DNA from: Heliorestis convoluta
GTDB lineage: Bacteria; Bacillota; Desulfitobacteriia; Heliobacteriales; Heliobacteriaceae
NCBI RefSeq assembly: GCF_009649955.1
Contig: NZ_CP045875.1
Coordinates: 124,001-188,000 of the forward strand
Direction of reading: 5' to 3'
Length of the DNA: 64,000 nt
The notes below the pieces were generated by a model. That model was not told where the DNA came from and did no database searches. It saw only the letters and a list, made by a program, of their open reading frames with translations. The number at the start of each line of letters is the position of its first letter. Positions within the stretch are counted from its first letter, which is position 1. Made by a program: the position numbers and the translations under genes. Shown here piece after piece: positions 9,553 through 24,084 of this stretch.

Positions 9553-9880
<328 letters not shown>

Positions 9881-9920
9881 TCAAAGCTTGTTCAAAATCA
9901 ATTTCTTTCTCAAAGACCAT
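9881..9920 (-). pseudogene. hsdR: Type I restriction subunit hsdR, first 13 codons only
   Basis: Downstream of hsdS on the minus strand, a GTAGGAG ribosome site precedes an ATG at 9920 that reads MVFEKEIDFEQAL. This resembles the N-terminus of HsdR restriction subunits, which usually follow hsdM and hsdS. The frame is cut at 9881 by the joint with 16S rRNA. A HindIII-type AAGCTT (9883-9888) lies beside the joint. Thirteen codons are few, so the family call rests mostly on position. Confidence 0.6.
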
Positions 9921-9936
9921 TGCGTATTCACAACTC

Positions 9937-11166
9937 CTACACGAACATTTTTTCGAGCATGGATTTCTTGAAATTTTTTAACTTTTCTAACTCAAGCTGT
10001 TGAAGGGTGATAAGATTGTCGAGACGCTGAAAGAACAACGTAATCCTTTCTTGTTCAGGCAACGAAGGAAGAATTATCGTTCTTTTTTTCCAATCTTCAA
10101 CATCGAATACCAGCTTTTCTATATCAACTCCATATGAGCTGAGGAAAAACTTCCTATACATATTAGGCAGTTTCGATATTAAAGTCCAGTACTCGGTAGT
10201 GATGTTTTTGTTTCCAATGGATACTAAGTATTCATTGGAAACAATTGATTTATCAAGGCTTTCCGGCACTATTCCATTTGCTCCATGTACCACTTGTCTC
10301 TTTGAAATCAAATAATCTCCAGACCTGATTTCAAAATAGTTTTTGACTAAAATGTCTTTGCCCTTGAAATAGCCTCTGGATACGATTCCCTCATTACGAC
10401 GTTTCACCGTAATAAGCTGATACTCTTCATCATCTTCCATTTTAATAGGGCGTTGCTTTTCTGTTAGCACATCTCCAACCTTCTTCTGTTCCCAAGCATC
10501 GGTAAATCCGGCAAAGCGAATTTCCGGAACATTGGCTCCATCCTTCGGAAACATTTTTTCGAGCATGGATTTTTTGACGATAACCAGCTTGTCATATTTA
10601 CGCTGATGAAGGGTAATAAGGTTGTCGAGGTTTTTGAAAAAGGTGCCGATTTTGGTTTGTTCCCCATCTTTTGGGACATAAACGAGTTGCTCATCCAAAT
10701 CGCTTTTGTTAAGGTTTCCAATTGCACCATTTCCGCCAGATACAAAAATGCTTATAAATTTCTCATACCATGATGAACTCATAGAGGCATTTAAGAAATA
10801 TGGGTTCTTAGTCTTAGCAAGCAGCATAAATCCACCGTGCACCGCTTTTTTGTCCAATTTACACACTATTGCGTGCTTTCCAACCAATCTACTTGACCCA
10901 TTAGCGGAAGTGACAAGAATATCACCTTCATCTACATATTCAATATTTACTGCACTTTCATTAACAAAAACATCATCGTCTTTTTCCAAGTAAGTGTCTT
11001 CATTTATGTTGGAAGATCTAAGAACTCTAACACCATCCTCAACAATATCGCTTGGTTTATATGTCAATCCTCTTCGGGTTTCAGCTAATTCTTTATACTT
11101 ACGCTGTTCCCAAGCATCGGTAAATCCAATGAAGCGAATCTCTGGTTTTTTATCTTTTTCAGCCAT
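9937..11166 (-). CDS. hsdS: Type I restriction-modification specificity subunit HsdS
   Basis: DNA-recognition subunit of a type I restriction-modification complex. The 409-residue protein shows the expected internal duplication: two target recognition domains, each opened by an EIRF-GFTDAWEQ motif (about residues 9 and 211) and each closed by a conserved helix ending in KKSMLEKMF (about residues 200 and 405). Each domain reads half of a bipartite site, and the helices set the spacing. It starts at an ATG 16 bp after hsdM and forms an operon with it. hsdR, which would follow, is truncated at the 16S joint, so only modification is expected from this copy. Confidence 0.93.
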   Translation of the reverse strand: MAEKDKKPEIRFIGFTDAWEQRKYKELAETRRGLTYKPSDIVEDGVRVLRSSNINEDTYLEKDDDVFVNESAVNIEYVDEGDILVTSANGSSRLVGKHAIVCKLDKKAVHGGFMLLAKTKNPYFLNASMSSSWYEKFISIFVSGGNGAIGNLNKSDLDEQLVYVPKDGEQTKIGTFFKNLDNLITLHQRKYDKLVIVKKSMLEKMFPKDGANVPEIRFAGFTDAWEQKKVGDVLTEKQRPIKMEDDEEYQLITVKRRNEGIVSRGYFKGKDILVKNYFEIRSGDYLISKRQVVHGANGIVPESLDKSIVSNEYLVSIGNKNITTEYWTLISKLPNMYRKFFLSSYGVDIEKLVFDVEDWKKRTIILPSLPEQERITLFFQRLDNLITLQQLELEKLKNFKKSMLEKMFV

Positions 11167-15323: not shown

Positions 15324-15504
15324 GCTGTTTGGCTCCTTTCAAGGTTTTGGGAGTTATTCGTTGATGTTTATCTACAAGGTTTGTTTTTTAGGATGATGGC
15401 ATACGTGTTATAGGGAAAGATTATAAAGCTGTAGATTGGATAGATCTTTTCCCTAGTCGTTTATCGTAGTTTTCTTAAATATTTTGTACGGTTCTTAAAC
15501 AAAA

Positions 15505-15538
15505 TTCGACAGGATTTTCGCAACGGAAGTGATATACT
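15505..15538 (+). promoter_or_regulatory. Promoter A: reversed 0A box, 22-bp spacer, -10
   Basis: TTCGACA at 15505-15511 (TGTCGAA, the Spo0A box, on the other strand) is followed after 22 bases by TATACT at 15533. The 15-base stretch ATTCGACAGGATTTT is identical in promoter C at 23368. In B. subtilis, sigma-A promoters switched on by Spo0A (spoIIG, spoIIE) have the same unusually long spacer. It leads directly into RNA element A. Spo0A control is inference. Confidence 0.55.
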
Positions 15539-15563
15539 TTTTATAACCTAACATTTCGTTCTG

Positions 15564-15606
15564 AAACCAGTCGGGGTTGTGCCAAGCAGCCTATGACTGG
15601 TTTTTG
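15564..15606 (+). ncRNA. Two-stem RNA element, copy A
   Basis: Outer stem AAACCAGTC (15564-15572) with GACTGGTTT (15595-15603); inner stem GGTTG (15575-15579) with CAGCC (15587-15591) around a 7-base loop TGCCAAG; a T run follows. It starts about 26 bases after the -10 of promoter A, so the transcript would begin just before it and could end at it. Copies B and C have the same fold with compensating base changes in both stems. Confidence 0.6.
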
Positions 15607-15753
15607 CTATTTTTACTTAGAGGTATTTCGGCAGCGCTTAACAAAAATATTCCTGAGTCTTTTCTGATAATTGGCAACACAAATAAAAATAAACCGATTG
15701 AGGAATTAATCAATTTTACAATTCCAGAGTGCTGTTATTCCGGTGGTGTGTGA
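15604..15753 (+). pseudogene. Short open frame after RNA element A, no normal start
   Basis: The frame reads RGISAALNKNIPESFLIIG and continues NTNKNKPIEELINFTIPECC to a stop at 15751. It looks like real protein, but the only canonical start is a TTG at 15604 inside the T run of RNA element A, without a ribosome site. AGAGG at 15619 is too close to the ATT at 15625. I read it as a remnant of a small gene once expressed from promoter A. Confidence 0.3.
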
Positions 15754-16059
15754 AGATTCTTTTTTCATGGAAAACAAAACCACTCTGTGTTAGATAATGC
15801 TTTTTTGTTGTATTTGCATCTGGATTTCTGGAATTATCACGTTTTCGGACAATTCCGCTAAGCTCTGTGACATAAGGGTTTGTGGACATTTTGGAAATTA
15901 AGATGCGTAGACTCTCTGAAATTTTCATTGGATTGCTCAATACTGAATTTCATGACGTTCACCCCGTAGGTGAGATTTTGATTCTTTCTTTAGAAGCATT
16001 TAACTCTTTTTTACGGGATTTTATGCGGATTTTAGAGGTTTTTCTTTAGTTTATTGCTG

Positions 16060-16317
16060 TGGATTCAAGAAGTTGACCCAAATAAACTTCGAACAATCGT
16101 ACTAAAAACTGTTGAGGAATTTGAGATAGAATGAGAGGATTGAGTCGAAACCTGAGCAAGTGACCATTACAATTTAGGGCGGGTATTACTCTTTCTATGG
16201 TAGAAGATTGTATGAGAGAGAAAAATATATCATTTGAAGATGCTATTAGTTATCTTATCAGCGTAGGTTGGAAGGCACATCGGCTATTTAATGAAGTCAT
16301 GGTCTCAAAAAAGTAAT
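16060..16317 (+). pseudogene. Decayed copy of the LexA-type DNA-binding protein
   Basis: Pieces in different frames match the gene at 23513: EVDPNKLRTIVLKTVEEFE (cf. VDPNKPRTIVLKTDEEFE), ESKPEQVTITI then TAG (cf. EPEPVTITIEG), and TLSMVEDCMREKNISFEDA through to NEVMVSKK (cf. TLSMVEDCMRKKNISFKDA). Stops and at least two frameshifts separate them, and the N-terminal winged helix is missing. It lies about 450 bp after promoter A and RNA element A, which repeats the promoter-RNA-lexA-like order of the intact copy at 23369-23917. Confidence 0.75.
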
Positions 16318-16391
16318 AGCTGAGGTGGTAGGACAAGCTTGAATTAATACAAAAAATTGTCAGAGATGCTTAAAAACTAAAAATATGTCTC

Positions 16392-17135
16392 ATGGAGGTT
16401 AAATTGATTAAAGAATATGATATTGCTTTTTCTTTTGCAGGTGAAGATAGGGACTTTGTAAGACCAATAGCTATTGAGCTAACCAGACATGGAGTTAAAG
16501 TATTTTATGATGAGTTGGAACAAGTAAATTTGTGGGGGAAAAATCTATATCAGCATTTGTCCCAAATATATTCTTTCAAAGCTGACTATTGCGCTATATT
16601 TATTTCAAAGTTTTATGTAGAGAAGTCCTGGGCTAAGCACGAGCTTCGTAGTGCACAGGAAAGGGCTTTTGCACAGGATGCAGAATATATATTGCCAATA
16701 AGGCTAGATAATACTAAAGTGCCTGGAATATCTGAAACAACTGGGTATATTGATGCTCGTAAGTTTTCTACCAAAGGGTTAATAGATATGTTTCTAAAAA
16801 AACTAAATTACCCATCTACTGCTCACAAAAAAGCTAAAAAGGAAAAGAATAATAGTGACCCAGAGCTTCTGTTTTTACAAATTAGAAGCATTATTAATTC
16901 CCTGGATCCAATTGACCTCTTTCCAGAAGCTCCCTCTGACGAGTATGACCCAGAAATAAGAGACATAATAACCATTTTACCTGAAATAAAGTCAATATCT
17001 GAGCTAACAATTAAAATTCATTCAATCTTTGTTAAATGGTTTGATAAAAAAATTGTAGGTAGTATATCTGATTATGAAAAGGTAGCTTATGAGATATGGT
17101 GTTTAACTCATGAAAAAATGGAAAGTGTATACTAG
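16392..17135 (+). CDS. TIR-domain protein with C-terminal DUF1871-like domain
   Basis: Residues about 5-135 are a TIR domain: YDIAFSFAGEDRDFV, VFYDELEQVNLWGKNL, and SWAKHELRSAQERA with the glutamate that catalyses NAD+ cleavage in enzymatic TIRs. Residues about 160-245 (SLDPIDLFPEAPSDEYDPEI then FVKWF) resemble DUF1871/YugE. Bacterial TIR proteins in defence islands usually degrade NAD+ or make a cyclic-ADP-ribose signal after phage sensing. No ThsA partner is adjacent; Gabija follows. The ATG at 16392 is part of ATGGAGG, a ribosome site, so the TTG at 16404 is the likelier start. The region is AT-rich. Confidence 0.8.
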   Translation: MEVKLIKEYDIAFSFAGEDRDFVRPIAIELTRHGVKVFYDELEQVNLWGKNLYQHLSQIYSFKADYCAIFISKFYVEKSWAKHELRSAQERAFAQDAEYILPIRLDNTKVPGISETTGYIDARKFSTKGLIDMFLKKLNYPSTAHKKAKKEKNNSDPELLFLQIRSIINSLDPIDLFPEAPSDEYDPEIRDIITILPEIKSISELTIKIHSIFVKWFDKKIVGSISDYEKVAYEIWCLTHEKMESVY

Positions 17136-17212
17136 TTCGCAAGCTCTACAGAAAAAACAAATAGGTTACTGTGGGGCTTTTTTTGAGAAGACTTGACATT
17201 TTTTTACTAAAC

Positions 17213-17246
17213 TTTGAGAAGCTGTTACGTTATAACATGATTTATA
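17213..17246 (+). promoter_or_regulatory. Weak promoter before RNA element B
   Basis: TTTGAGA at 17213 and TTTATA at 17241 repeat the 22-bp spacing of promoters A and C, with a box that matches TTCGACA at 5 of 7 positions. A TTGACA at 17193 and TATAAC at 17231 are alternatives with poorer spacing. This copy may have drifted. Confidence 0.25.
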
Positions 17247-17273
17247 AAAAATACAACCAATTGAAAGACATTG

Positions 17274-17317
17274 AAAACCAGCTTGGGCTGTGCAAAGCAG
17301 TCTGTTTAGCTGGTTTT
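17274..17317 (+). ncRNA. Two-stem RNA element, copy B
   Basis: Outer stem AAAACCAGCT (17274-17283) with AGCTGGTTTT (17308-17317); inner stem GGCTG (17286-17290) with CAGTC (17298-17302) around TGCAAAG. Compared with copies A and C, both strands of the outer stem have changed together (TC/GA, CT/AG, CC/GG). A small palindrome AGAGGTAATTTACCTCT follows at about 17329. It lies between the TIR gene and a 51-residue open frame. Confidence 0.6.
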
Positions 17318-17421
17318 ATTGTTTATAAGAGGTAATTTACCTCTGTAACGTGGTGTGGTGTAAAGGAGATAAAAAGAGGTATAGTACAAACGTTTTGTAA
17401 AAAATCTAGGAGAGTGAAACG

Positions 17422-17577
17422 GTGGAAGTTGATAACTTTATGCTTGGAAGGACTATGGGGGGAATCCTTCGGTTAGAGAATGCACAGGGTATTTGTGCAT
17501 ATAATGACGCGACAATATATGGATTGATTAATGGTATTGAACCATTTATTGATGAATTCTTTTCTATCGAACTATAA
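17422..17577 (+). CDS. Small hypothetical protein, 51 residues, before Gabija
   Basis: GTG start after AGGAGAG with good spacing; reads MEVDNFMLGRTMGGILRLEN and ends EPFIDEFFSIEL. It is acidic and soluble-looking. It follows RNA element B and precedes gajA by about 165 bp. I do not recognise it. It could be a small defence-associated protein or an antitoxin-like partner; neither is shown. The ribosome site and intact frame support it being real. Confidence 0.5.
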   Translation: MEVDNFMLGRTMGGILRLENAQGICAYNDATIYGLINGIEPFIDEFFSIEL

Positions 17578-17743
17578 CCGAAGCCAAATTGATGTTATTG
17601 CTAGGTAATCATTTTTATCATAAGCTATTTCATTAAAAAGTTCTCGGATAAAAGCTATGATCAAATAAAAAACACTACAAACAATTTAATTGACACAAGA
17701 CTTACAAATACAAGTCAATATGTAATAAAAAGGTGTGAGCTAA

Positions 17744-19879
17744 ATGTACATATCTCAAATAGAAATATTTAATTTTCGAAGCTTTCAACAGAACGTTATA
17801 GAATTTAATGAAGGTATGAATGTTATCATTGGACATAATAACGCGGGCAAAACTAACTTACTCAGTGCATTAGGACTTATATTTAACCAAAACCAACGGT
17901 ACCGTCCTGATGTGGAAGATTTCAATAAAAATATTCCTATATGCCACTATCTTACTAAAAATGAAAAAGGTATTTATATACCTCCTAAAATAACAATTAG
18001 TGTTTGGATTCAGGAGTCTTCCGAGTTTTCTAACGAATTATCTGATGATAATAACGTGATCTATGCGTGGAGAATTATAGTTGATAGACCATATTTGGCA
18101 AAGCTAACTTATGAGTTCTTTTTACCTGAGGGAGCAATATTTGCAAATTACCAGAAGGACATTCAAAAATTAGTAGATGAAAAAAAAGATATTGAAATTG
18201 ATTTTTGGGATTTGTTAAAAAGAAAATATATCAGAAAATACATTTCGAGAATTTATGGGGGAGATGAAAAATTAAGAAATAGAGCGAATTCAGAAGAATT
18301 AAGTAAATTTGATTATCAATTTTTAGATGCTATTAGAGATGTTGAAAAAAAACTATTAACAGGTAAAAATATTTTGCTTAAAGAAGTATTAACTTATTTC
18401 CTGGATTACCAGTTAGAAGGAGAGAATGATGCGGAATTACAAGATGAAAGAGAAAAAAGATATGAAAATTTTCGAGAAGAATCAGGAAAGCTTATTAAAA
18501 GTTTAAAGGAGCGAATCCATACCGAACCAATCTTAGATTATGCAAAAAATGTTGGAGCATCCATTGAAGGAATCCCTAATTTTGAAGGGCGAATTAATGA
18601 GGTCGAATTATTTTCTGCATTAAGCCTAATAATTGAAAAGGAGACCGGAATAAAGATACCTGTTACGCATAATGGATTAGGTTATAACAATCTGATTTAC
18701 ATGTCTATTTTACTAGCAAAAATGCAAATGCAGTGTACAGATTATGTAAATGAAGATGAACAAAAAGTATTTCCTATGTTACTTATAGAAGAACCCGAAG
18801 CTCATCTTCATCCTGCAATGCAATACAAATTTCTCAAATTTTTAAAACAAAAACTAAAAGAAAAAGACAAAGTTAGACAGATATTCATTACTACTCATTC
18901 CACTCATATTACTGCAGCAGTTGATTTAGACGAAATAATTATTTTGAATATTGCTCAACAGCAAAAGTTAAATGTATCTTACCCAGGAAAAGTTTTTGAT
19001 TTAGACTCAGAGGAAGATAAAAAGTCAAAAGCGTATGTTAAAAGGTTCTTAGATGCAACGAAATCGGATATGCTTTTTGCTAAAAGTATCATCATGGTTG
19101 AAGGGATTGCTGAACAACTATTGTTATCTTGTTTTGCAGATTATGTGAAAAAGGAAAAGCATATACCAGTCTCTTTAGAAGATAATCATGTTTGTGTCGT
19201 CAATATAAGTGGTAGGTACTTCAATCATTTTCTGAAGCTATTTTATTATGCAGAGCAGGATCCATTAAGAAAATCTGCAATTAATAAAAGGATATCTTGT
19301 ATTACAGATACAGATCCTACTAAAAGAAAAATAGAAAAGAAGGCAAAAAATACCAAGTGCTTCCCATTCGAATTACAATCCAACCCTAAAGAGTATACCT
19401 ATAAGGATGAATCAACCGTGCTTTTTGAATTAAAGCAAAAACAAAAAGATCATAATAATATTCGTATATTTTCTCAACTTAAGGGTAAAGGAAAGACATT
19501 TGAATATGAACTAGCCTATTGGAACCCAACTTGTCAACTACTGTTGACAGATTATGTGTCCAACAGGAATGAACTGGAGTCATTGATGTCATTATACTTG
19601 GATGGAAAAGACCTAGATGAAATGTTAACAAGAGTAAAATCAGAAAAACTGATTTCAAAAATTAAAGCAGCACCTCAAACCTGGGAAGAAAAAGAAAAGA
19701 AGAAAGCTCTCATTGCAGCAAGGTATTTGCAATCAGTTGAAAGCAACAAAGGTGAACATGCACTTGAATTAGCATATCAATTAAGAAAAAATCTCGAAAA
19801 GGGACAGCCAGTCAGTTTTAGAGTTCCACCATACATTGAAGAAGCAATACTCTGGGCTTGCGGTCAAGAGGAGGGATAG
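17744..19879 (+). CDS. gajA: Gabija nuclease GajA (OLD-family ATPase-TOPRIM)
   Basis: ABC-type ATPase joined to a TOPRIM nuclease. Walker A GHNNAGKTNL at residues 30-39, signature and Walker B region with LLIEEPEAHLHP near 348, and switch histidine TTHSTH. The TOPRIM part has MVEGIAEQL near 451 (catalytic glutamates) and the aspartate pair in ITDTDP near 520. Immediate pairing with a UvrD-type helicase marks a class 2 OLD, i.e. Gabija, in which GajA nicks phage DNA when nucleotides are depleted. At 711 residues it is longer than the B. cereus protein of about 580. The stop is one base from the gajB start. Confidence 0.9.
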   Translation: MYISQIEIFNFRSFQQNVIEFNEGMNVIIGHNNAGKTNLLSALGLIFNQNQRYRPDVEDFNKNIPICHYLTKNEKGIYIPPKITISVWIQESSEFSNELSDDNNVIYAWRIIVDRPYLAKLTYEFFLPEGAIFANYQKDIQKLVDEKKDIEIDFWDLLKRKYIRKYISRIYGGDEKLRNRANSEELSKFDYQFLDAIRDVEKKLLTGKNILLKEVLTYFLDYQLEGENDAELQDEREKRYENFREESGKLIKSLKERIHTEPILDYAKNVGASIEGIPNFEGRINEVELFSALSLIIEKETGIKIPVTHNGLGYNNLIYMSILLAKMQMQCTDYVNEDEQKVFPMLLIEEPEAHLHPAMQYKFLKFLKQKLKEKDKVRQIFITTHSTHITAAVDLDEIIILNIAQQQKLNVSYPGKVFDLDSEEDKKSKAYVKRFLDATKSDMLFAKSIIMVEGIAEQLLLSCFADYVKKEKHIPVSLEDNHVCVVNISGRYFNHFLKLFYYAEQDPLRKSAINKRISCITDTDPTKRKIEKKAKNTKCFPFELQSNPKEYTYKDESTVLFELKQKQKDHNNIRIFSQLKGKGKTFEYELAYWNPTCQLLLTDYVSNRNELESLMSLYLDGKDLDEMLTRVKSEKLISKIKAAPQTWEEKEKKKALIAARYLQSVESNKGEHALELAYQLRKNLEKGQPVSFRVPPYIEEAILWACGQEEG

Positions 19880-19880
19880 T

Positions 19881-21635
19881 ATGGAGGAAAAAATCGATTC
19901 AAATACTACTATTCATATTGAGCAGCATTTTAAGATTATTGCTGGGCCAGGTGCTGGTAAAACTCATTGGTTAACAAATCATGTAAAAAACGTTCTGCAA
20001 AACTCAACACGATTAGGCCGTACAGCTAAGATAGCTTGCATTACCTATACAAATGTGGCTTCGGAAGAAATACGTTTAAGATTAGGTGAGACTGTTGGAG
20101 AAAAAGTTGAAATAGGAACTATACATAACTTCTTATATAAATATATTGTTAAGCCCTATGGATTTTTACTTAAAGACGAAGAGGGGATTAATTTAATTAA
20201 TCTTGAAAAAATGGATGGTCATGATGAGCATATACCAAATATCTCAATAATAAAGAAATGGATCGATAGTGAATTAGGTCGTAGAAGATTTTATTTACTT
20301 AACGATGATCGCATTGAAAGGTTCCTACAGTGTCTAAAAAACTTTGATTGGATTTTAGAGCAAGATGATTGTCTAAATTTTCAATTGAGATCAGAATACA
20401 AGAAGACTGCAAGTAATATTCGACTTCCAAAATTGACTCAAAAACAACTCCTTACGTACAAGAAGTATTATTGGAATAAAGGTCAAATTCATCATGAAGA
20501 TGTCCTTTATCTTGCTTATAGGATACTAAAAGAGAAACCAAGTGTAATAAAATTTTTAAGTTATAAATTTCCTTATCTTTTCATTGATGAATTTCAAGAT
20601 ACCAATCCTATTCAAACTTCAATTGTAAGAAGATTAGCGGCTGAAAAAACTATCGTTGGTGTGATTGGTGATAGTACACAGTCAATATATAAGTTTCAAG
20701 GAGCTAAGAGAGAAGACTTTGAGGTTTTTGAACTTAATGAATTAAAAGAATACTACATGCCGGATAATCGACGTAGTACAAATAATATTGTGAAATTTCT
20801 ACAAAACATTCGTGACGATGAATTAGTTCAAAAAGCAAAAAAGAATAGAGAAGGTGCTAAAGTAACCGTATTAGTTGGCGATCAATCAAAAGCTCTACAA
20901 TATGTAAGCAAGATAGATCATAAAGCGTGTGTATTAGCAAGAAATAACGAAACCGTAAGACAATTGAAATACTCATCAACTCAGGAACTAGGGGATCTAT
21001 GGGTTCGTTCAAGAGTTATTGATAGTAACTTTCAACGACAAATGTTTATTTACTATGCTGTATTTGCTGTAGAATTAATAGAACAAAAAAAATATGAAGA
21101 AGCTTTGAGTCTAATGAAAAAAATATTCAATTATCATGCGAATGGCAGTAAAATTACCCAAAAGAAAAAAAGAAGCTTTGCTATTCAAACAATAGAGAGG
21201 CTTTATTCCTTAAGAAATCAAAACTATAAGAAAACACTATATGAATACCATAATGTTACATTAGAAGAGATCTTAGAGCGATTTGATGTTGAATCACCGA
21301 GTGCTAAAATCACAAAAAGAGGGAAAAAGTTTTTCGAATTTGCTAATCAATATACATATCAACATATGGTTCAGTCTTTACGTTTACAAGAAGATGAAAG
21401 TCTGATTAGGACCATCCATAAGGCCAAGGGATGTGAATTTAATACTGTCTTAGTGGTATTAGAGAAAAAGAATTTAAGATATTTATTTGAACCGAAAATT
21501 GATTCGATTGATGATGATACAAGAATTTTGTATGTAGGTTTTAGTAGGGCAAAGGAAAAATTGTATATAAATATTCCCTATTTAGCTGATGATAAACATT
21601 CAATATTATCAGAATGTGAAATTATTGATATTTAA
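19881..21635 (+). CDS. gajB: Gabija helicase GajB (UvrD/PcrA-like)
   Basis: Superfamily 1 helicase-like ATPase that partners GajA. Motif I AGPGAGKTHWL near residue 21, motif II LFIDEFQDTNP near 234, motif III GDSTQSIYKFQGA near 263, and C-terminal motifs TIHKAKGCEF near 510 and ILYVGFSRAKEKLY. The ATG at 19881 follows AGAGGAGGGA and is preferred to an upstream in-frame ATG at 19836 inside gajA; this gives 584 residues. The one-base gap to gajA implies coupled translation. The composition is strongly AT-rich compared with the chromosomal genes at the left, as expected of transferred defence genes. Confidence 0.9.
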   Translation: MEEKIDSNTTIHIEQHFKIIAGPGAGKTHWLTNHVKNVLQNSTRLGRTAKIACITYTNVASEEIRLRLGETVGEKVEIGTIHNFLYKYIVKPYGFLLKDEEGINLINLEKMDGHDEHIPNISIIKKWIDSELGRRRFYLLNDDRIERFLQCLKNFDWILEQDDCLNFQLRSEYKKTASNIRLPKLTQKQLLTYKKYYWNKGQIHHEDVLYLAYRILKEKPSVIKFLSYKFPYLFIDEFQDTNPIQTSIVRRLAAEKTIVGVIGDSTQSIYKFQGAKREDFEVFELNELKEYYMPDNRRSTNNIVKFLQNIRDDELVQKAKKNREGAKVTVLVGDQSKALQYVSKIDHKACVLARNNETVRQLKYSSTQELGDLWVRSRVIDSNFQRQMFIYYAVFAVELIEQKKYEEALSLMKKIFNYHANGSKITQKKKRSFAIQTIERLYSLRNQNYKKTLYEYHNVTLEEILERFDVESPSAKITKRGKKFFEFANQYTYQHMVQSLRLQEDESLIRTIHKAKGCEFNTVLVVLEKKNLRYLFEPKIDSIDDDTRILYVGFSRAKEKLYINIPYLADDKHSILSECEIIDI

Positions 21636-21713
21636 AAATTGAAACTTTTAAGTGAATATCAATGATTAAACATTGACGGTTAATCTTCATTTTATGTAAA
21701 ATTATCAATCTGT

Positions 21714-21822
21714 TTGATTACTGACGAATGTTGCCCTAGAGTATATAAGTTTAAGCATTAAAGACTTTTAGTTTTTTAAGTATTCTTTCACGAAAGCAAC
21801 CAAGTGGCTGGTTTGTGTGTTT
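21714..21822 (+). promoter_or_regulatory. Degraded copy of the promoter plus two-stem RNA cassette
   Basis: GCAACC (21796-21801), four bases, then GGCTGGTTTGTGT (21806 on) match the 3' half of RNA element C almost exactly, but the 5' arms are replaced by unrelated AT-rich sequence, so the fold is lost. Upstream, TTGATT at 21714 and TATATA at 21742 keep the 22-bp spacing. A TGACGAA (consensus 0A box) lies between them at 21722. Confidence 0.45.
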
Positions 21823-21921
21823 AGTAGAGGAAAAGGTTATCATTCGCTCATCGTCTGGGATTGGCATTACAATTTGGAGAGGTTTTAATGATTGTTGTGG
21901 ATTTTAGAAAGGGGTTATTTA

Positions 21922-21987
21922 ATGCAGGTATTTTACTTTATCCTTTTTATAATAGTTTTTATTGTGTTTTCTATTATTTTCAATTAA
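21922..21987 (+). CDS. 21-residue hydrophobic transmembrane peptide
   Basis: AAAGGGG followed by an ATG encodes a 21-residue peptide from MQVFYFIL to FSIIFN with no charged residue, long enough for one membrane helix. Size and composition resemble type I toxin peptides and other small membrane regulators. No antisense RNA is evident by eye. It follows the degraded promoter/RNA cassette, just as other small open frames follow the intact copies. Confidence 0.4.
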   Translation: MQVFYFILFIIVFIVFSIIFN

Positions 21988-22189
21988 CGTCATATAAAAA
22001 ATAGAGTTACTTCTTTTAATTACATTACTTATATATACGAAGACCAGAAGAGTATATATAAATGAAAGCCGTTATACATGTGAAATATAAATACATAGTA
22101 AGTGTTGATGGATTACAGAACCTAGAAGAAAAAATAAACTACAGAAGAATTGCAAGTAATAACAATACTTACATAAAGGTGGGGGTAAA

Positions 22190-23272
22190 ATGCAGATTGA
22201 CTTTCATCATGGTGTGATCTATGTACTTGCTCGATTGGCAGGTTTTGAAAAAAGAGATGCAGATATTATTGCTTACTGCTCACAATACGTAGATGATGCA
22301 ACTCTTAATGTTCCCATCCGATTTCTAGACGGTGCACTTTACAAGCCATTACAGTCGGCGCATAAAATGCTTGACTATCGAAACTTTAACGACTTAGCAT
22401 ATTCATTAGTTTGGATCCCTTTTCATTTTCTTCCTGGCAACGGCAATTTAACAGCCAGTGAAGGGAAAGAGCTTGACTATGTTAAAAGGATAATATGCAG
22501 AAAAAATAGTCCGTTAGCTCAAGATATGATACGAGATTGTATCGAAAAGAAAAGCGAAACAACGGGGCTCTATCGTTTTGGAATCGCATTGCATACTTAT
22601 GCGGATACTTGGGCACACCAAGGTTTTGCAGGAATTCAAAGTGAAGTAAATAAGGTTAAATACTTACGTAGAAATAAGATCGACGAGAAACTCATAGATA
22701 AGTTATCGACGTTTTTTGGCAGCAACTTTGATAAAGCTCAAGGTATATTCTTAAATGCAGCTCTTCCTTTAGGTCACGGAACAGTTCTGAGTTATCCAGA
22801 TCGACCTTATCTCACATGGAGTTACGAAGATCATCAAGGAAGCGAGATCCTCAAGAATAATCCCGAAATTTATATGGAAGCTGTTGACCATATTTATGAG
22901 GCCATGAAAAGATATCTAATAGATAATCCTTATGCAGACGTTGAGGGAGTGCCTTCTGAGGAGCGAAAGAAAATTGAGGATTACTTACGAACTATTGATT
23001 TTACAAGTGGTGAGGAACGCCATCGGGAATGGTTAAAATTAATACGGGAAGGCAAGTTTTCTTTTGGACCAGAATATGTAAGCTATGCAAGTGATGGAAG
23101 AGGTTCATGGGAGTTTGAAATTACAAATGGCTATGATGTTGAAACAGATATAATAAACTCTCACAAATTTTTTGAAACAAGTCATTGGAGATACTTCTAT
23201 GACGCTATTAGAGATCACTACTACTTCCTATTACGCAAACTCTTTCCGAAATATGGCTTGCTAATTGCCTAG
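22190..23272 (+). CDS. DUF6765 family protein
   Basis: A 360-residue soluble protein. MQIDFHHGVIYVLARLAGF at the start and ALHTYADTWAHQGFAG near residue 140 are typical of this uncharacterised family. The spaced histidines and aspartates (DFHH, HTYAD, H near 203) resemble the metal site of zinc-dependent phospholipase C folds, so a metal-dependent hydrolase is possible but unproven. AAAGGTGGGGG precedes the ATG. It stands alone between Gabija and the LexA-like gene. Confidence 0.75.
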   Translation: MQIDFHHGVIYVLARLAGFEKRDADIIAYCSQYVDDATLNVPIRFLDGALYKPLQSAHKMLDYRNFNDLAYSLVWIPFHFLPGNGNLTASEGKELDYVKRIICRKNSPLAQDMIRDCIEKKSETTGLYRFGIALHTYADTWAHQGFAGIQSEVNKVKYLRRNKIDEKLIDKLSTFFGSNFDKAQGIFLNAALPLGHGTVLSYPDRPYLTWSYEDHQGSEILKNNPEIYMEAVDHIYEAMKRYLIDNPYADVEGVPSEERKKIEDYLRTIDFTSGEERHREWLKLIREGKFSFGPEYVSYASDGRGSWEFEITNGYDVETDIINSHKFFETSHWRYFYDAIRDHYYFLLRKLFPKYGLLIA

Positions 23273-23368
23273 TTTAACAAACAAACATATCAAAAGAGTA
23301 TGAGGAAGTAATTCCGGGATACTAACCTATAAGAAATATCAGATATTAAAAATCAGAATCTTACAATA

Positions 23369-23402
23369 TTCGACAGGATTTTACCCTTTGATATGGTATA
23401 AT
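23369..23402 (+). promoter_or_regulatory. Promoter C: reversed 0A box, 22-bp spacer, -10
   Basis: TTCGACA at 23369 and consensus TATAAT at 23397 are separated by exactly 22 bases, as in promoter A. The shared block ATTCGACAGGATTTT shows common descent. It drives RNA element C and then the LexA-type gene at 23513. Confidence 0.6.
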
Positions 23403-23421
23403 TTTATTGTATTGATAAAGA

Positions 23422-23476
23422 AAAACCAGCCTGGTGGTTGTTCCTAGCAACCATATGGCTGGTTTGTGTTTTTTCC
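23422..23476 (+). ncRNA. Two-stem RNA element, copy C
   Basis: Outer stem AACCAGCC (23424-23431) with GGCTGGTT (23457-23464); inner stem GGTTG (23436-23440) with CAACC (23448-23452) around a 7-base loop TTCCTAG. GTGTTTTTTCC follows. The RNA begins about 20 bases after the -10 and ends about 40 bases before the LexA-type gene, so it could act as an attenuator of that gene or as a free small RNA of about 60-70 bases. Confidence 0.65.
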
Positions 23477-23512: not shown

Positions 23513-23917
23513 ATGGAATTAACCCGTCAAGAAAAAAATGTTTTGGCGTTCATACAGAAATACGTTTCAGAACATAGTTATCCGCCTTCAATTCGGGAAA
23601 TTTCTGATGCAGTAAATTTGAAGTCAACGTCTAGTATACATAGATATATTAAAATACTTGAAAGTAAAGGACATTTACATGTGGACCCTAATAAACCGCG
23701 AACTATTGTGCTCAAAACTGATGAAGAATTTGAGTTAGAACCAGAGATTGAACCAGAACCAGTGACCATTACCATTGAGGGTAATACGCTTTCTATGGTG
23801 GAAGATTGTATGAGGAAGAAAAATATTTCATTTAAAGATGCGACTTGTTATCTTATCAGTATAGGATGGAAAGCTGATCATTTGGTTAATGAAATTGTCC
23901 CAAAAAAGGATGAGTGA
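23513..23917 (+). CDS. Stand-alone LexA-type winged-helix DNA-binding protein
   Basis: Residues about 1-65 match the LexA N-terminal DNA-binding domain: LTRQEKNVLAFIQKYV, YPPSIREISDAVNLKS, SSIHRYIKILESKGHL. The S24 self-cleaving peptidase domain of LexA is absent; instead a Glu-Pro repeat (EFELEPEIEPEP) leads to a 50-residue C-terminal domain (TLSMVEDCMRKKNISFKDA to NEIVPKKDE). It may be a repressor without SOS-type cleavage, perhaps of its own 0A-box promoter. AGGAG sits 8 bases before the ATG at 23513, so the GTG at 23504 is rejected. A decayed paralogue lies at 16060. Confidence 0.8.
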   Translation: MELTRQEKNVLAFIQKYVSEHSYPPSIREISDAVNLKSTSSIHRYIKILESKGHLHVDPNKPRTIVLKTDEEFELEPEIEPEPVTITIEGNTLSMVEDCMRKKNISFKDATCYLISIGWKADHLVNEIVPKKDE

Positions 23918-24084
23918 GTTGGTTTAGAGCAGACAAGTTTTGAACTACTACGAGAAAAGCGGAGAGACCTCAAAGTGTATCAAATCTTTCTTGTCAAAAG
24001 TCTCTACTCAATCAAATTGAAGAGTGCAAAGCATTGCTAGTTTAAGAATAAATTAAATTTTTGGACTTAAAAGGATGTGAGACT

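Follow-up and report, generated by a model that had tools for sequence, protein, structure and literature searches.

Heliorestis is a photosynthetic, spore-forming bacterium. In the window analysed here, 64,000 nucleotides of Heliorestis convoluta contig NZ_CP045875.1 (positions 124,001 to 188,000), three copies of an RNA hairpin lie on the + strand, at 15564-15603 (copy 1), 17275-17316 (copy 2) and 23423-23465 (copy 3); all coordinates are positions in the window. Copy 1 has the outer helix AAACCAGTC/GACTGGTTT, the inner helix GGTTG/CAGCC and the loop TGCCAAG, copy 2 has the loop TGCAAAG, and copy 3 has the outer helix AAACCAGCC/GGCTGGTTT, the inner helix TGGTTG/CAACCA, the loop TTCCTAG and the tail GTGTTTTTT. 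A preliminary description of the window had proposed that the three copies fold alike, and this is confirmed at the same positions (-24.0, -24.9 and -27.1 kcal/mol; z -3.85, -3.84 and -5.08; no shuffle equalled them). The RNA had been described as two-stemmed; the outer and inner helices are there, but they belong to one hairpin in which they are split by an internal loop, and the whole is shaped like an intrinsic terminator. A fourth copy had been said to keep only its 3' half, and the fragment at 21795-21820 (+) indeed matches the 3' half of a genomic copy (L067:14640) at 92.9% over 28 nt, with a fold that is not significant against shuffles (z +0.52). The motif ACCAG-N18-40-CTGGT occurs 4 times in the window, always on the + strand, against an expectation of 0.63, and a single shuffle in 100 has as many; genome-wide, AACCAG-N18-48-CTGGTTT was found 23 times with both strands summed, against 3 for the reversed control.

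Two of the copies stand behind a promoter. Upstream of copy 1 is a candidate Spo0A-type element (15495-15511, +) made of a weak half-box TTAAACA (15495-15501) and a 0A box TTCGACA (15505-15511), followed by the extended -10 TGA-TATACT at 15530-15538 (+; TATACT at 15533-15538), and the orthologous promoter is kept in the sister species, Heliorestis acidaminivorans. Upstream of copy 3 the corresponding element (23359-23375, +) consists of the half-box TCTTACA (23359-23365) and the 0A box TTCGACA (23369-23375), and its extended -10, TGG-TATAAT at 23394-23402 (+; TATAAT at 23397-23402), is likewise kept between the species while spacer and leader diverge. Copy 2 has no clear 0A box. The sequence TTCGACAGGATTTT recurs without change at 15505 and 23369, the only two places in the genome where it is found with a downstream TAT, and the -10 ends 25 bases before the hairpin at 15564 and 20 bases before that at 23423. 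Taking a start 7 nt past the -10 and an end in the U-rich tail, the terminated RNA of copy 1 is predicted at 15545-15613 (+, about 69 nt), and promoter and U-rich tail likewise predict an RNA of about 67 nt for copy 3 at 23409-23475 (+); the starts proposed earlier, 15546 and 23409, agree with ours at 15545 and 23409.

Across the family, a 0A box and a -10 lie upstream of 11 of 22 copies, and in all 11 they are 21 bp apart. The box is exactly TTCGACA in 10 of these and TTCGATA once, the -10 reads TATAAT, TATACT, TACAAT or TATTAT, and the TG of the extended -10 is present in 10 of the 11; the background rate of a TTCGACA-N21-TA..AT pair is 51 in 38,198 sequence windows (0.13%). Ten bp upstream of the 0A box the dinucleotide CA is found in 11/11 and ACA in 10/11, which places it in phase with a possible second, weak box about one helical turn away. 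Whole-genome searches with the exact pattern returned 7 and 5 sites and none for the reversed control, and 5 of the 12 sites lie directly before family hairpins. The core of the 0A box is TGTCGAA (PMC3485338), of which TTCGACA is the reverse complement. Both Heliorestis species encode Spo0A (PF08769, E 4e-45), and the known Spo0A target spoIIGA carries TGTGACA-N21-TATAAT in both. Because of the core match, the presence of Spo0A in both genomes and the 21-bp geometry of spoIIGA, we read the promoter as Spo0A-type and predict that Spo0A binds it. A long, fixed spacing between the 0A box and a sigma-A -10 is also a property of spoIIG of B. subtilis. Read instead as a plain sigma-A promoter with a 16-17 bp spacer, these sequences give no consistent -10, whereas the 21-bp reading gives one every time. 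The earlier interpretation is supported in part: a promoter-plus-RNA cassette is borne out, the promoter appears to be of the Spo0A type rather than plain sigma-A, and half of the copies are without it.

The hairpin is not a general part of such promoters, as other 0A-type promoters lead to genes that have no such hairpin. TTCGACA-N21-TATAAT sites of this hairpin-free kind (L083, L087, L092, L093, L105-L107) also occur in a second heliobacterial genus, and the genes behind them resemble, by reading of the sequence only, sensor kinases, a response regulator and others. It is possible that they represent a Spo0A regulon of heliobacteria.

Behind copy 3 lies a LexA-like winged-helix gene (23513-23917, +; LexA_DNA_bind PF01726, E 1.7e-20) whose start codon is 47 nt past the hairpin and in which no protease domain was found. 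The 3' part of a decayed relative of this gene lies behind copy 1 (16072-16313, +; 76.9% identical to the sister species' LexA-like gene), so that the claim that each copy precedes a different gene does not hold. Because of this remnant, copies 1 and 3 are, as judged from sequence, relatives of one module and not independent cassettes, and the promoters reported as near-identical, which prove to be identical over TTCGACAGGATTTT, reflect that relationship. The ortholog of copy 1 in the sister species (L073:9814) lies within a 1.2-kb stretch of 88% identity, and that of copy 3 is at L073:14847. Between the two hairpins H. convoluta has TIR, Gabija and DUF6765 genes, and the sister species has a ParA-like gene and, by reading, an apparent group II intron fragment. 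Spacer and leader change between related loci, but box, -10, hairpin and T-tract persist, a pattern that amounts to a phylogenetic footprint. The C-terminal part of the LexA-like protein (23745-23956) is shared with a 231-residue protein, not assigned to a family, in related modules (L067:15469-15645).

Copies outside the window were counted by pattern and covariance-model searches, and a first model built from 8 copies and a second built from 19 gave results that agree. Approximately 13 convincing copies are present in the H. convoluta genome, where they are scattered among genes of phage defence, and 8-9 in H. acidaminivorans, with one extra weak copy in the latter (L077:18009) from a local search. 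Exact matches to one hairpin type were found, among named genomes, only in H. acidaminivorans. Among 83 genomes of the class, convincing copies were confined to the two Heliorestis genomes, and the remaining matches in the other 81 were weak generic hairpins (E about 5e-5), some of them adjoining Rpn-like genes in other genera; within the genomes searched, then, the family appears to be restricted to one genus. The RNA had not been recognised at the outset, and an Rfam scan at gathering and relaxed thresholds placed no family near the hairpin copies. Kinship with the skipping-rope RNA of the window (RF02924, 36909-36993, -, 63.8 bits) was ruled out, since the latter is the sole copy in the genome and has a different structure. 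Viral contigs, phages and plasmids gave no match in exact-pattern and short-query searches of limited reach, and an origin of the cassette in such elements was set aside.

The covariation noted among the first three copies is real and grows as copies are added. Over 19 copies, 97.0% of the cells of 14 pairs are paired, and in these two species, with shuffle controls that ignore kinship of the copies, 6 pairs are doubly changed against 2.8 in shuffles (16 such cells against 5.5). The covariation score of the 19 copies exceeds all 500 shuffles and all slid controls, and sliding the partner abolishes the signal. The model search also recovered further copies with compensating changes, the absence of which had been named beforehand as grounds for rejection; the matching loci L067:14640 and L074:10209 differ in the inner stem by a compensating exchange between G-C and A-U. 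Weakened pairs are G-U in 18 cells and A-C in 3, or about 15 against 3 independent events by hand count (P 0.004), counts from which the relatedness of copies is only partly removed. Such an excess is not expected for a DNA palindrome and therefore indicates selection on RNA in this orientation. The loop of 7 nt is conserved, roughly as U-N-C-M-W-A-G, and a BLAST comparison of flanks found unrelated loci to be alike only from about -2 to +50 around the hairpin.

In its form the hairpin is that of an intrinsic terminator: a GC-containing stem followed directly by a U-rich tract, with 8-12 U among the 15 nt that begin at the closing UUU, and termination in vivo is accordingly a prediction. A simple terminator scan did not call the family hairpins because its rule needs one uninterrupted, short-loop stem. 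In several copies, not all, the hairpin lies between promoter and ribosome site. The distance from its end to the start codon is 47 and 44 nt for the LexA-like gene in the two species, 30 nt for a SIR2 gene, 47 nt for a GyrI-like gene and 76 nt for a DUF4209 gene that matches the defence candidate PDC-S39; copy 2 ends 105 nt before a 51-codon open reading frame that precedes gajA of Gabija. Inspection by eye showed no promoter in the shorter of these gaps. A 0A box stands directly in the LexA-like and DUF4209 leaders; for the SIR2 gene, the cassette with a 0A box is the next hairpin upstream (L070:10033). Further genes near the copies, given as a listing of loci and not as an enrichment, comprise a type I methylase, a TIR protein, an EcoRII-type enzyme, a PLD-helicase, an HNH gene, a UvrD-TPR gene, a dynamin-like gene and Rpn-like genes, where McrBC- and Rpn-like assignments were made by reading the sequence. 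A leader peptide across the hairpin was rejected, as inspection of the leaders found no common start codon or frame.

We favour, tentatively and with a probability of roughly 45%, a reading that starts from the observed family, its pairing, its strand bias, the geometry of its promoters and the placing of several copies in leaders: the hairpins would be Spo0A-driven leaders that act in cis and limit read-through to the gene behind. Activated Spo0A would recruit sigma-A polymerase at the 0A-type promoter of about half of the copies, and transcription would start 13-43 nt ahead of the hairpin. Because the hairpin is built as an intrinsic terminator, activated Spo0A should yield a short terminated RNA; hairpin and U-rich tail would end most transcripts at about 65-95 nt. 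The gene behind, often one of defence or a regulator, would be reached by read-through alone, that is, by attenuation through position. Conservation of the 7-nt loop suggests that some factor reads it, and a protein or RNA acting in trans may adjust termination there. Each of these elements, from Spo0A binding and termination in vivo to attenuation and the loop factor, is predicted from sequence. That one common leader, with a Spo0A-type promoter and a conserved-loop terminator, was placed before unrelated anti-phage and regulator genes and so couples starvation signalling to defence through regulated read-through is a wider claim, and one that we consider unlikely.

Several observations weigh against cis-acting leaders. 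No alternative antiterminator fold was found in any leader examined, in folds of leader plus hairpin, and any control would therefore require a trans factor. Eleven of the 22 copies are without a Spo0A-type promoter, including those closest to the SIR2 and GyrI-like genes, and the GyrI-like gene is not defence-related. The promoter-bearing copy 1 and those at L072 and L077 have no intact gene directly behind. At least two copies, L066 and L067:9512, have convergent genes on either side and resemble bidirectional terminators; these, and three copies found behind or beside Rpn-like genes, are compatible with plain termination. The covariation comes from two species only. A few copies resemble ordinary or bidirectional terminators, and it is quite possible that the family is mixed, with some leaders, some stand-alone RNAs and some bare terminators.

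A close rival is that each cassette is its own gene for a Spo0A-controlled, multicopy small RNA that acts in trans, with loop or leader pairing to target mRNAs as in the csRNAs of streptococci. The csRNAs were discovered through intergenic promoters with a terminator right behind them (PMC3091779). Some cassettes lack an intact following gene, at two loci the species hardly differ in the RNA from -10 to tail, and a UUCCU loop could pair with Shine-Dalgarno sequences. The leaders, however, are unrelated among loci, which leaves the 7-nt loop, in several variants, as the sole common single-stranded part, and several copies occupy the only room between the promoter and the ribosome site of the gene; we regard this explanation as possible and somewhat doubtful. 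Less probable again is a dispersed repeat in which a good terminator has spread with defence and Rpn modules, without regulation and with promoters left from decayed genes. Such a repeat would account for homology that stops at about -2 and +50, for the convergent positions of L066 and L067:9512, for the frequent gene remnants, and for an Rpn-like gene between two hairpin copies inside direct repeats of about 250 bp (89%; L065:9409-10825); a truncated Rpn-like copy elsewhere is also followed by a hairpin (L071:10251). Conserved loop and stem sequences, however, are not required of a terminator, a pure insulator would not come, in 11 copies, with the promoter of a response regulator 13-43 nt before the hairpin, and the stretches that separate box, -10 and hairpin change faster than these elements do. 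It is very improbable that the element acts as DNA, as an operator or recombination hairpin: GGTTG-N7-CAACC is operator-like, and the cargo between hairpins differs between species while its borders persist, but symmetric selection on DNA does not predict 18 G-U cells to 3 A-C, and no attC-like RYYYAAC/GTTRRRY ends were seen by inspection.

Among known systems, the csRNAs are similar intergenic RNAs of 51-202 nt in which a CiaR promoter is closely followed by a terminator, and some consist of the terminator hairpin only (PMC3091779). The Heliorestis cassettes share the order of response-regulator promoter and terminator, but they have TTCGACA with 21-bp spacing in place of the CiaR repeat TTTAAG-N5-TTTAAG, conserve the hairpin rather than the leader and include several copies in gene leaders. 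LhrC of Listeria is a multicopy small RNA controlled by LisRK (PMC4132741), and the likeness is that of multicopy RNAs under a two-component system; the regulator in Heliorestis differs, and no sequence link was seen. The Spo0A-activated sigma-A promoters of the spoIIG and spoIIE type resemble ours in the 0A core and the long spacer, which is also 21 bp at spoIIGA here, but they lead straight to protein genes, whereas the cassettes meet a terminator hairpin first. Leader attenuators have the same succession of promoter, short leader, terminator hairpin, ribosome site and gene, and the Heliorestis hairpins differ from them in being without a competing antiterminator structure or known ligand.

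The surroundings of copies 1 to 3 hold further features of their own. The Gabija pair is complete (17744-21635, +; GajA E 8e-255, GajB E 1e-184), and a TIR-domain protein (16392-17135, +) is similar to ThsB-type and PDC-S66 models and matches DUF1871 weakly at its C-terminus. A 5' fragment of 16S rRNA (9601-9924, +; model positions 47-358) ends abruptly by the end of an apparent HsdS gene (9937-11166, -), as if a defence island had joined or interrupted an rRNA operon.

The silencing and switching-on of defence genes are poorly known. If a family of short RNAs, many of them beside or just ahead of defence genes, is indeed driven by Spo0A, the master regulator of sporulation, phage defence in Heliorestis would be tied to the starvation decision by a read-through switch that is directly testable, and a response regulator outside streptococci and Listeria would own a multicopy RNA family.

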